A DNA stretch of 60,055 bases from Methanobrevibacter millerae (GTDB taxonomy: Archaea; Methanobacteriota; Methanobacteria; Methanobacteriales; Methanobacteriaceae), in assembly GCF_900103415.1 (NCBI RefSeq), contig NZ_FMXB01000018.1, positions 1 through 60,055 on the forward strand, written 5' to 3'. How positions within the stretch are numbered: the first letter of the stretch is position 1; each line of letters opens with the position of its first letter. The position numbers were made by a program, and so were the translations under genes. Below are positions 4,332 to 8,624 of this stretch, in pieces. The notes below the pieces were generated by a model that saw only the letters and a program-made list of their open reading frames with translations, did no database searches and was not told the DNA's origin.

Positions 4332-4347
4332 TTTAGTTTAACCTAAG
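4332..4347. promoter_or_regulatory. DtxR/IdeR-like half-palindromic operator, distal site
   Basis: TTTAGTTTAACCTAAG is an imperfect palindrome with TTAG and CTAA arms, and resembles the iron-box half-site TTAACCTAA of DtxR-family regulators. It lies about 240 bases upstream of the small gene at 4583. A weaker GAGCCTAAAA half-site occurs near 4362-4371. This is motif similarity only. Confidence 0.35.
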
Positions 4348-4461
4348 TATTATCATTTGTTGAGCCTAAAAATTAATTTTAAACGAATAATTTATATATT
4401 ACTTTTTAATTAATATTATATTGGACAATAAACAATTTTTAGCAAAGTAAAATTTTCGTTT

Positions 4462-4504
4462 CCTAAAAAACAGAATCTTTAGGTTTGCCTAAAATTTAAA
4501 TATA
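4462..4504 (+). promoter_or_regulatory. Promoter with palindromic DtxR-like operator before the P-type ATPase operon
   Basis: TTTAGGTTTGCCTAAA at 4478-4493 is a perfect 6-bp inverted repeat with a 4-base centre, and a further CCTAAA sits at 4462-4467. The palindrome abuts a TATA-like element (TTTAAATATA, 4495-4504), so a bound protein could block TBP. The sequence resembles iron-dependent DtxR/IdeR/MntR operators. The rest of the 4242-4582 gap is AT-rich with no ORF that I can support. Confidence 0.5.
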
Positions 4505-4582
4505 ATTGTCAACAAAGATACATATGTTATTGGATTTTTTCAAAAGGTTCAATAAATTGATAAAATACGGGAGAAATTTAAA

Positions 4583-4852
4583 ATGTCAAAATACGAATAT
4601 CTAGATAAAGTACTCGAACATAAGCATGCACTTATTTTTGCTGGCGGAATCGCCACTGCACTCATCGGAAAAAAAGTATTGCAATCCGATATTGTTAAAG
4701 ATTCATGTACCCAAGGAATGGCAGCAATAATGTCAGCCAGAAAAGACGCTGAAGAATGTTTCCAGGATATGAGGGAAAACGCAGAAGACATTGTTGTCGA
4801 TGCCAACGCAGAAACCAAAAAAGAAATTTACATTGAAGACGACGACGAATAA
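4583..4852 (+). CDS. Small membrane-anchored protein (DUF6110-like) paired with a P-type ATPase
   Basis: An 89-residue protein. Residues 16-32 form a short hydrophobic, glycine-rich segment (LIFAGGIATALIGKKVL) that could anchor or bind a membrane. The remainder is acidic and helical, with two cysteines (in KDSCTQ and EECFQD), and ends IYIEDDDE. The acidic tail and cysteines could touch metal ions. It lies 21 bases before the P-type ATPase gene and shares its promoter. Small proteins of this kind (I recall the DUF6110 label) recur beside P1B ATPases. The family name is from memory; the operon link is seen directly. Confidence 0.75.
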   Translation: MSKYEYLDKVLEHKHALIFAGGIATALIGKKVLQSDIVKDSCTQGMAAIMSARKDAEECFQDMRENAEDIVVDANAETKKEIYIEDDDE

Positions 4853-4873
4853 GTTTATTTTTCGGGTAGAGCA

Positions 4874-7015
4874 ATGAAATTTCAAGTAATGTATGATAAG
4901 GGAACCCGCCTAAGGGTTCGATCAGGCCAATGGGCTTTCACCAAAGAGGAAGGCTATGGTCTTGCTTCATTACTTTTACAGAATGATTTTATCAACGAAG
5001 TCTACACGTCCCATAGAAACGGCAGTATCTTGATTTACTATGATGACGTGAAAAACAAGGGAAAAATTTTCGATATCCTAACTTCAATCACTCTGGATGA
5101 TTTGGTTGAAGGAGAAGCAACGCAGCTCCAGATTTCAAAGGAAATCACGGATGATTTTATTTTGAAACTGGCGAGAATGATTGGCAGAAGATTTTTAGGC
5201 AGACTCTTCCTGCCTGTAAGGATTAAACATATTCTGACAATTCTGCGAGCTTCAAAGTATATCTGGAAAGGATTGGACAGTCTGACTGATTTCCGCATCG
5301 ACGTTGCCTTGCTTGACGGCGTAGCGGTTGCCGGAGCCCTTTACATGAGGGACTTCAAGCCTGCAAGCTCAATGATGTTCTTGTTGTCAATCTCCGATGC
5401 ATTGGAAGACTACACCGTACAAAAAGCCAAAAGCACTTTAAAAGACAGTTTGGCTTTAAATATAGATACAGTATGGCTTGTAGAAGGAGATGGAACCGAA
5501 AGGCCTTATCCGGCCTTGGAAATCCAAAAGGGAGATAAAATCAAAATCCATATGGGAGACGTTATTCCTGTGGACGGTAAAGTAGTGGACGGAGAGGCAA
5601 TGGTTAATGAAGCCTCAATGACCGGCGAGCCATTGGCTGTCCATAAAAGACCTGGAAAGACTGTCCATGCAGGTACCGTAATAGAGGAAGGAAACATTAT
5701 CGTTGAAGTATATTCAATCAACAAGGAAACCCGACTGAATAAAATCATTGATTTGATTGAAAACTCAGAGGATTTAAAGGCAGACGCTCAAAGCAGAGCC
5801 GAAAAGCTTGCGGATTCAATCGTTCCATACAGTTTCCTTGCAACGGCACTGACTTATCTCTTTACGGGAAACGCCACAAAGGCATTGTCAGTACTGATGG
5901 TTGATTTCTCATGTGCAATCAAATTAACGACGCCGTTATCGGTAATATCCGCCATGCGTGAAGCCTCAGACAACAGGATGATGATCAAGGGAGGAAAATT
6001 CCTTGAAAATTACGCTATAGCGGACACGATAGTCTTTGATAAGACAGGAACGTTAACGAACGCTTCCCCTAAGGTTGTCCATGTATTCCCTATGACTAAA
6101 AGATATAAACGGGAAGAAATCTTAAGGATGGCTGCCTGCATCGAAGAGCACTTTGCGCACAGCATTGCAACAGCCATTGTAAAACAGGCCGAAGAAGAAG
6201 GAATCAAGCATGAAGAGGACCACAGTGAAGTCGAATACATCGTAGCCCATGGAATTGCAACTGAATACGACGGAAAGCGTGTTGTAATAGGCAGCAGACA
6301 CTTCCTCTTTGATGATGAGGGTATTAAAATCAATAAAACCCAGGAAAAGAAAATCAAAAGGGAAGTCAAGGACCATTCCGTTGTTTACATGGCCATTGAC
6401 GGCAAGCTTGAAGGTCTCATATGCATAGATGATCCTGTGCGTGAAGAGGCGAAATACGTTCTCGAGGAGCTCAGGGCATTGGGCATAGAAAACATCATAA
6501 TGCTTACGGGAGACAGTGAAAGCGGAGCGAAATCTTCGGCTGAAGCCTTGGGAATCACCGAATACCGCTCACAGGTACTTCCTGAAGACAAATCAAGAAT
6601 CGTTGAAGAGCTTAAGGCCGAAGGCAAAACGGTCATCATGGTCGGTGACGGAATAAACGATTCGCCTGCCCTTGCAGCAGCGGACGTGTCAGTGTCAATG
6701 AAAAACTCATCCGATATCGCACGTGAAGTGGCAGACATTTCACTTTTATCAGATGATTTGTATGACCTTGTAACATTGAGAAAATTAAGCACGGGAATGT
6801 TCGACAAAATCAACACAAATTATAAAAGGATTGTGGCTGTCAACGGCACTCTGCTTGTATTGGGCGTCTTGGGTGCGATTTCACCTGCTACATCTTCAAT
6901 GATACATAACCTGTCCACGATGATATTCGGTGCATTAAGCACCAAATCAGTTCTTGGGGACGATTATTCAAACGAAATCAATGTAGAAGCTATTGAAGTT
7001 GCCGATGCGACTTAA
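4874..7015 (+). CDS. P1B-type metal-transporting P-type ATPase (possible P1B-6/FezB-like)
   Basis: A 713-residue heavy-metal ATPase. The N-terminal 75 residues resemble a heavy-metal-associated fold but lack CxxC. Signatures are present: TGEP near residue 250, DKTGT with phosphorylated Asp389, and GDGIND near 591. The usual HP dipeptide of the nucleotide domain is HS (HFAHSIATAIV). The metal-site helix has SCAIKL (Ser346-Cys347-Ala348) instead of CPC or CPH, a feature I associate with the P1B-6 group, which includes ferrosome protein FezB. It follows a small membrane-anchored protein behind DtxR-like operators, so iron or manganese is a likelier substrate than copper. Family certain, substrate inferred. 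Confidence 0.93.
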   Translation: MKFQVMYDKGTRLRVRSGQWAFTKEEGYGLASLLLQNDFINEVYTSHRNGSILIYYDDVKNKGKIFDILTSITLDDLVEGEATQLQISKEITDDFILKLARMIGRRFLGRLFLPVRIKHILTILRASKYIWKGLDSLTDFRIDVALLDGVAVAGALYMRDFKPASSMMFLLSISDALEDYTVQKAKSTLKDSLALNIDTVWLVEGDGTERPYPALEIQKGDKIKIHMGDVIPVDGKVVDGEAMVNEASMTGEPLAVHKRPGKTVHAGTVIEEGNIIVEVYSINKETRLNKIIDLIENSEDLKADAQSRAEKLADSIVPYSFLATALTYLFTGNATKALSVLMVDFSCAIKLTTPLSVISAMREASDNRMMIKGGKFLENYAIADTIVFDKTGTLTNASPKVVHVFPMTKRYKREEILRMAACIEEHFAHSIATAIVKQAEEEGIKHEEDHSEVEYIVAHGIATEYDGKRVVIGSRHFLFDDEGIKINKTQEKKIKREVKDHSVVYMAIDGKLEGLICIDDPVREEAKYVLEELRALGIENIIMLTGDSESGAKSSAEALGITEYRSQVLPEDKSRIVEELKAEGKTVIMVGDGINDSPALAAADVSVSMKNSSDIAREVADISLLSDDLYDLVTLRKLSTGMFDKINTNYKRIVAVNGTLLVLGVLGAISPATSSMIHNLSTMIFGALSTKSVLGDDYSNEINVEAIEVADAT

Positions 7016-7127: not shown

Positions 7128-7868
7128 ATGAATAAGAGAAAAATATTACCGTTTATTTTACCGATTGCGATTATTATTTTTTGGTACGTCATAACTAATG
7201 GCCTTCATTTGGTAGAGCCGTACGTATTGCCAGGTCCTGTTGACGTATTAAACTCTGCAATTAAGATTATACAATCTGGAAAACTATTGAAAAATACTGT
7301 TGACACATTATTCAAGGTATTCTGTGGTTTAATCATAGCATCTGTTGTGGCGATTCCTTTAGGAATACTTTTCGGATGGTATCAGACCTTGGAAGACTTA
7401 ACATCATTTATCATCAGTATTTTAAGGCCAATCCCTCCTGTCGCATGGATTCCATTTTCCATCCTGTGGTTTGGAATAGGAACCGTTCCGGCAGTATTCA
7501 TTATCTTCATGGGTTGCGTATTCCCGATTTTGGTCTATACAATGGATGGTGTAAAAAGAACAGATAAAGTTTTAATAGAATCTGCTCAGACATTGGGAGC
7601 CAACGACTGGCACATTTTAAGAAGGGTAATATGGCCCTCTGCCATTCCGTATATCGTTTCAGGTCTGAAAGTCGGTGTCGGTATCGCCCTGATGTGTACG
7701 ATTTCAGCAGAGATGATTGGTTCAAGCAGTGGTTTAGGATATATGATTTTAACGGCTACAAATCTATTTGATACAGGTACGACCGTTGTAGGAATGTTGG
7801 TTATTGGTTTAATCGGTTTAGTGCTTGATTACATATTTGGACGTGTACAAAAAAGGATTTTCTGGTAG
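7128..7868 (+). CDS. ABC transporter permease, NitT/TauT (SsuC-like) family
   Basis: A 246-residue permease with about six membrane segments and the cytoplasmic EAA loop (ESAQTLGANDWHILRRV) that docks onto the ATPase. This family imports sulfonates, nitrate, taurine, thiamine precursors or similar small anions. The next gene, 9 bases downstream, is its ATPase. No substrate-binding protein gene is in the window, so the substrate is undefined. Start at ATG 7128; no better start is available. Confidence 0.92.
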   Translation: MNKRKILPFILPIAIIIFWYVITNGLHLVEPYVLPGPVDVLNSAIKIIQSGKLLKNTVDTLFKVFCGLIIASVVAIPLGILFGWYQTLEDLTSFIISILRPIPPVAWIPFSILWFGIGTVPAVFIIFMGCVFPILVYTMDGVKRTDKVLIESAQTLGANDWHILRRVIWPSAIPYIVSGLKVGVGIALMCTISAEMIGSSSGLGYMILTATNLFDTGTTVVGMLVIGLIGLVLDYIFGRVQKRIFW

Positions 7869-7877
7869 GTGTTTTGA

Positions 7878-8624
7878 ATGTCAATTGAAATTAAAAATAT
7901 TAACAAATCCTTTGAGGGAAGAGGAAAGAACTTATCCGTATTGGAGAATATCAATTTAACGATAAATGACGGCGAGCTCGTATGTCTTCTCGGACCTTCC
8001 GGCTGCGGCAAGACAACTCTCCTGCGTCTGATTGCAGGTCTTGAAAAACCTACTTCCGGTGAAGTCATAGCCAATGGTGAAGTCGTTGAAAAGCCGTCAG
8101 GCGATCGTGCAGTTATTTTCCAGCAATATTCATTGTTCCCTTGGCTTACGGTTCTTCAAAATGTAACTTTCGGTCTTGAAATTTCAGGAGGTTCCAAGGA
8201 GGAAAATATCAAGGCAGCCGAAAGATACCTTACAAGTGTCGGTTTAATCGACTTTAAGGATAGCTATCCTCATGAACTTTCAGGGGGTATGAAACAGAGG
8301 GTTGCAATTATCAGATCCCTGCTTAATCATTCACCTATCTTGCTTATGGATGAGCCGTTTTCTGCAGTGGATATGCAAAATAGGCACAAGCTTCAGGAAC
8401 AGCTCATAGGTGTTTGGAAAAGATTTGAAAATACGATTGTTTTTGTAACCCACGACGTTGATGAAGCGGTATATCTTGCTGATAAAATTGTTCTTCTGGA
8501 TAAGAATCCTGGAAAAATCGATGAAGTGATTGAAGTGGATTTGGAAAGGCCAAGAAAAAGGGATTCTCAGGAATTCCTTGATATTCAGGAATCTATAGTC
8601 GGTAAACTTGATATGGAAGAATAG
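7878..8624 (+). CDS. ABC transporter ATP-binding protein, NitT/TauT (SsuB-like) family
   Basis: A 248-residue ATPase with Walker A GPSGCGKTT, Q-loop (VIFQQYSLFPW), signature LSGGMKQR, Walker B LLMDEPF and H-loop THD, all intact. It follows its permease by 9 bases and energises import. AGGTG before the ATG serves as the ribosome binding site. The missing binding protein means either that it is encoded elsewhere or that the pair shares one. Confidence 0.94.
   Translation: MSIEIKNINKSFEGRGKNLSVLENINLTINDGELVCLLGPSGCGKTTLLRLIAGLEKPTSGEVIANGEVVEKPSGDRAVIFQQYSLFPWLTVLQNVTFGLEISGGSKEENIKAAERYLTSVGLIDFKDSYPHELSGGMKQRVAIIRSLLNHSPILLMDEPFSAVDMQNRHKLQEQLIGVWKRFENTIVFVTHDVDEAVYLADKIVLLDKNPGKIDEVIEVDLERPRKRDSQEFLDIQESIVGKLDMEE

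Follow-up and report, generated by a model that had tools for sequence, protein, structure and literature searches.

Whether a two-gene operon of the archaeon Methanobrevibacter millerae could build an iron-storing ferrosome was investigated in a 60,055-nucleotide stretch of contig NZ_FMXB01000018.1 (the window). To our knowledge, no ferrosome has been demonstrated in an archaeon. Gut methanogens have a high iron-sulfur demand, and Methanobrevibacter has cultured members; because the locus provides a two-gene target together with its operator, both defined, in such a genus, archaeal iron-storage organelles would be directly testable.

The operon and its two products

The features of the locus were as follows (positions in the window):

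4332..4347, no strand: weak box TTTAGTTTAACCTAAG with two mismatches, chance-level and possibly non-functional (pattern search)
4478..4493, no strand: perfect iron box TTTAGGtttgCCTAAA, presumed DtxR operator
4495..4504, + strand: TATA element TTTAAATATA in the promoter of the fez operon (sequence; the box-TATA layout aligns across relatives)
4583..4852, + strand: fezA-like gene for an 89-aa DUF6110 protein (PF19605; glycine-zipper membrane segment, acidic tail)
4874..7015, + strand: fezB-like gene for a 713-aa P1B-6 ATPase (TIGR01525, motifs, trees, AlphaFold2 model)
4907..4924, + strand: RLRVRS motif of the N-terminal HMA-like domain, near which CxxC would be expected; its first and second R are nearly or fully invariant
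5909..5926, + strand: SCAIKL metal-site motif in a transmembrane helix (residues 346-351), conserved across the clade
6158..6163, + strand: HS replacing HP in the nucleotide-binding domain (residues 429-430; sequence)
6905..6910, + strand: HN pair (H678 N679) of the last membrane helices, unchanged in all 18 aligned relatives

The preliminary description had reported a perfect TTTAGG-N4-CCTAAA palindrome abutting a TATA box, and this was confirmed at 4478-4493, with TTTAAATATA directly downstream. The second operator that it had placed at 4332-4347 did not hold up: the site had two mismatches and was no better than chance (6 matches in the window at up to two mismatches, 3.7 expected). An ORF upstream of the pair in the fez leader was also rejected, being not conserved in relatives. 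The DUF6110 ORF lay directly upstream of the ATPase ORF, with 21 bp between them. No Rfam family was matched in the fez region, and neither FezC (DUF4405-like cytochrome) nor other accessory genes were found among the scanned neighbours (a CPBP protease, an ABC transporter and a methyltransferase). ABC permease and ATPase genes of Sao/Tau/nitrate-type families were located directly downstream of fezB (window 7128-8624), and ABC genes of the same type held the same position in two other loci (L083 and L084).

In the profile search, the 89-aa protein was assigned to DUF6110 with 27.8 bits, just over the cut-off of 26. The short hydrophobic segment and acidic tail previously noticed in it were present as the glycine-zipper stretch ALIFAGGIATALIG and the tail IEDDDE; DUF1490 with a C-terminal metal-binding motif was not found, DUF6110 being the only match. 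Across the phylum, 101 of the 152 genomes had DUF6110; they belonged to 7 of the 20 genera, every one within the family of M. millerae. A second partnership of DUF6110, with a CPC-type (VISCPCAFLISTP) ATPase and without an iron-box link, was seen in other Methanobrevibacter genomes, where the ATPase gene was followed by one or two DUF6110 genes and a MATE transporter (L019, L022, L023, L025, L028 and L037; these ATPases were read in L200-L202). Because DUF6110 also partners this ATPase within the genus, it is not exclusive to ferrosomes. In the M. millerae genome itself, the CPC-type ATPase (L209) was preceded by an ArsR-type gene and had no DUF6110 partner.

The 713-aa protein was identified as a heavy-metal P-type ATPase (489 bits). 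SCAIKL, HS for HP and an HMA-like N-terminus without CxxC, all listed in the preliminary description, were found at residues 346-351, at residues 429-430 and as a ferredoxin-like fold in the AlphaFold2 model (mean pLDDT 76.5; E3-9/E12-17, H24-35, E40-46, E51-56, H59-71), with RxRxR in place of CxxC. HMA_2 was matched by 7 of 18 aligned members, the M. millerae ATPase being unmatched. The clostridial relatives had HS too, whereas the Deinococcus and proteobacterial ones had HP. The solved structures nearest to the model were those of the P1B ATPases LpCopA, ATP7B and ZntA. The HN motif has been described as a P1B-6 hallmark (PMC9374683). By these sequence features, the protein can be assigned to the P1B-6 FezB ATPases.

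Relatives and origin of the pair

Two IQ-TREE analyses were carried out; the long-branch sequences L105, L107 and L109 were dropped from the second, which left the M. millerae clade as it was. The proposed check of ATPase phylogeny did not refute the ferrosome reading: in both trees, which were built without the authentic D. magneticus, S. putrefaciens and R. palustris FezB and with nickel exporters not sampled as such, the M. millerae ATPase fell in a fully supported clade (100/100) of DUF6110-partnered SCA ATPases, Clostridioides included. The sister group (joint support 100/99) comprised ATPases from multi-gene operons of Azospirillum, Arcobacter, Sulfurospirillum and a gammaproteobacterium, together with a Rhodobacter capsulatus ATPase. 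CopA-like, Zn-like and own-cell CPC ATPases were far from the M. millerae ATPase in both trees, which ruled out a grouping with Cu or Zn/Cd exporters.

The methanogen ATPases nested beside those of Anaerotignum and a Peptostreptococcales genome (100/99), and most of the Methanobrevibacter genomes sampled contained the ATPase at no less than 74% identity. Because of the nesting beside clostridial ATPases and the restricted distribution, the pair probably reached the methanogen lineage by transfer from clostridia.

Outside archaea, the matches listed placed the DUF6110-ATPase pair on Deinococcus plasmids and in many clostridia. The gene order in L088 was DtxR, FeoA, FeoB, small Cys-rich protein, DUF6110, ATPase; in L089, DtxR and feoAB adjoined the ATPase, and in L085, Fur was located upstream. 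Six genomes (4.2-4.8 Mb) with 76-110 CWB2 repeats were taken by us, from the repeat counts, to be Clostridioides, and their pair is presumably fezAB. At the search cut-off, a single ATPase of this kind was found in each of them, and the gene upstream was DUF6110-like wherever read (E 1.6e-22 in the one scanned). Among the matches listed, fezB-like ATPases were also seen in gut clostridia (L082, L085, L088 and L089), including a Faecalibacterium prausnitzii strain and Candidatus Ruminococcus; gut commensals may commonly have ferrosomes.

C. difficile ferrosomes need FezA and FezB, both Fur-repressed (PMC12574912). The M. millerae pair was similar to C. difficile fezAB in its gene order (DUF6110 protein, then SCA-type P1B-6 ATPase), in presumed iron-repressor control and in the common ATPase clade. 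It differed in its archaeal host, its DtxR-type box as against Fur, an identity of about 44% between the clostridial and M. millerae ATPases, and a much shorter FezA tail. By sequence, the locus has the make-up of a two-gene operon of the C. difficile type; C. difficile makes ferrosomes, whereas the M. millerae pair is known here from its genes. With the three-gene fez operon of D. magneticus and the six-gene operons of R. palustris and S. putrefaciens, the locus shared the SCA ATPase, the RxR N-terminus and a sister-clade relationship; unlike them, it had no FezC cytochrome, HMA2 or other accessory genes. The proteobacterial operons compared, which were fez-like by layout and not the published ones, also had a small membrane-anchored protein directly upstream of the ATPase (YtxH-like in L079 and L100). 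PacL-CtpC effluxosomes of mycobacteria (DUF1490) likewise combine a small single-helix Gly-rich protein with a P1B ATPase; M. millerae differs from them in having DUF6110, no DLHDHDH-type tail, SCA and not CPC, and an iron context as against Zn/Cd.

Grant et al. are said to have reported in 2022 that FezB occurs in archaea. The association of DUF6110 with P1B6 ATPases in Archaea has already been stated (PMC9374683). Because archaeal FezB and DUF6110-P1B6 pairs are thus already in print, the locus is a further case of a known gene pair.

Iron box and proposed function of the operon

Pattern and family searches, on which the genome-wide statements rest, gave 16 perfect boxes in the 2.72-Mb genome, all the exact boxes being located between genes; Markov models of this genome's sequence gave an expectation of 0.13-0.26, and the excess was about 60-125 times. 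The feoB-feoA genes were preceded by two perfect boxes and one with a single mismatch. The DtxR metal-binding domain had a single match in the genome, in a DtxR with a C-terminal FeoA domain, and a one-mismatch box was located 59 bp before the start of its gene. Relatives with a stand-alone fez pair (L020, L024, L030, L033, L034 and L041) kept the perfect box at about the same distance, pairs inside a feoBA operon (L017, L018, L029, L031 and L035) had no box of their own, and in L036, L039, L043 and L044 the pair was divergent from feoAB. The iron-box character earlier ascribed to the operator was thereby strengthened, since feoB, the single DtxR gene and the conserved feo synteny tie the box to iron.

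Judged on sequence only, the fez promoter has the iron box, the same box stands at feoB and a DtxR gene is present, and the palindrome is regarded as a real iron box and the presumed DtxR operator. With up to one mismatch, the reversed control had more matches than the pattern itself (49 vs 31), as might be expected of a chance or non-iron element that is uninformative on regulation. Such an origin is nevertheless highly improbable, given the excess and intergenic location of the exact sites, their presence at feoB, their conservation at the fez operon and the perfect box preceding 31 of 37 copies of the RNA family described below. As in DtxR/IdeR iron-box regulons, a palindromic operator is found at feoB and at the gene of the repressor itself, a DtxR with a FeoA domain; unlike in those regulons, the box is the methanogen TTTAGG-N4-CCTAAA and is also located upstream of a multi-copy small RNA family.

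On balance, we lean towards a fezAB-type operon under iron-DtxR control that builds an iron-storing ferrosome. Under iron-replete conditions, DtxR carrying Fe(II) would occupy the box next to the TATA element, blocking transcription; in starvation, the fez operon would open together with feoB. The DUF6110 protein may oligomerise in the membrane via its glycine-zipper helix and gather the ATPase into patches or vesicles, a clustering proposed by analogy with PacL proteins and CtpC (PMC9374683, PMC13043812). The P1B-6 ATPase would move cytosolic, FeoB-imported Fe(II) across the membrane into a closed compartment, and iron taken up after starvation would be stored in the ferrosome, not lost. Storage is favoured over efflux because the pair of relatives shares an operon with feoAB or is divergent from it; regulation is the main discriminator between the two, as an argument and not a proof.

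The pair could instead form an iron effluxosome, DUF6110 serving as a PacL-like scaffold and the ATPase pumping Fe(II) out of the cell at the plasma membrane, with no organelle and with protection against iron excess as its role. DUF6110 has indeed been described as PacL-like, PacL1 gathers the exporter CtpC into membrane patches (PMC9374683, PMC13043812), and the fold-nearest P1B ATPases with solved structures are exporters. We consider this unlikely: the pair has its box, and in relatives its operon, in common with the importer feoB, so that an exporter made in starvation would be futile; moreover, the closest relative of known function, that of C. difficile, makes ferrosomes, and the PacL metal-binding tail is absent. 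An ATPase for another metal (e.g. Zn, Co or Mn), with secondary iron control such as cross-protection in iron starvation, appears improbable. Although the SCA and HN motifs do not give specificity with certainty and DtxR-family proteins may respond to Mn besides Fe, the ATPase is far from the Cu-, Zn- and CPC-types in both trees, and feoAB, DtxR and Fur neighbourhoods recur in archaea and clostridia. The resemblance to fez operons suggested in the preliminary description is thus carried by the ATPase clade, the DUF6110 partner and the iron box, while the ferrosome itself is what we infer from them.

Small RNA family downstream of iron boxes

Four M. millerae regions just 3' of iron boxes were paralogous predicted RNAs of about 200 nt, not genes. 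A covariance model was built from three copies and applied with strict filters. The copies were as follows:

L007:1559-1689, + strand: small RNA copy (covariance model family)
L009:1381-1529, - strand: small RNA copy (covariance model family)
L011:1489-1613, + strand: small RNA copy, upstream box with two mismatches
L012:1561-1716, + strand: small RNA copy (covariance model family)
L013, - strand: fifth, weaker small RNA copy, divergent from feoB
L222-L251: small RNA copies of relatives (covariance model family)

With the model, 27 of the 28 Methanobrevibacter genomes sampled yielded copies (70 in all, 1-5 per genome) and, under the strict filters, the 16 other genera searched yielded none. 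No Rfam match was obtained for the family, and a literature search found no published description of it. The perfect box of the 31 copies mentioned above was located no more than 90 nt before the start of the RNA, and 35 of the 37 copies examined had a box there at up to one mismatch, compared with 5-7% of random positions drawn from these loci. With few exceptions, the box stood at -57 to -60, and a TATA element came after it; the iron switch seems to drive the family.

Covariation supported a three-hairpin structure, in which 17 of 24 pairs had two-sided changes (74 cells vs 16 in shuffles; slid controls, 2-6 pairs), in an alignment that was fitted to the model and hence leans towards it. 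An unpaired ACAAUCUCCAAAAU was conserved, with UCUCC in 34 of 40, and could pair with Shine-Dalgarno sequences; the anti-Shine-Dalgarno-like segment ACAAUCUCC was conserved in the family. The genome contained 15 non-self one-mismatch complements of the seed, three of them just before plausible starts:

L261:1501-1513: seed complement in ribosome-binding position of a two-cluster 4Fe-4S (2x[4Fe-4S]) ferredoxin-type gene (Pfam-confirmed)
L264 (G000:C8:40256-40268): seed complement in ribosome-binding position of an FdhA-like formate dehydrogenase gene (read from sequence)
L255: seed complement before the TTG start of a phosphosulfolactate-synthase-like protein

The L261 and L264 genes are possible targets; the phosphosulfolactate-synthase-like protein is not known to be an iron-sulfur protein. 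These complements are compatible with a RyhB-like iron-sparing role, which so small a post hoc target set does not establish, and the family is a candidate archaeal analogue of RyhB/FsrA. More tentatively, one DtxR repressor might release FezAB (the first archaeal ferrosomes), FeoB import and multi-copy small RNAs with an anti-Shine-Dalgarno seed by which iron-using genes would be silenced. If true, this would be an archaeal counterpart of bacterial Fur and RyhB-type RNAs, coupled to organelle-based iron storage. With the box, the DtxR iron regulon of gut methanogens becomes readable, and it appears to include a small RNA family absent from Rfam. This family, exposed by tracing the iron box, is the newer part, the ferrosome-type pair itself being of known type.

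Other perfect boxes (L003 (G000:C1:176101), L001, L002, L005 and L015) were located before an HdrC/HdrB-like operon, ABC transporters (one by an AraC-type regulator) and two SAM-methyltransferase genes. At L004 (G000:C2:117514-117529), a perfect box with a TATA element was found between two convergent genes and may drive an antisense or small RNA.
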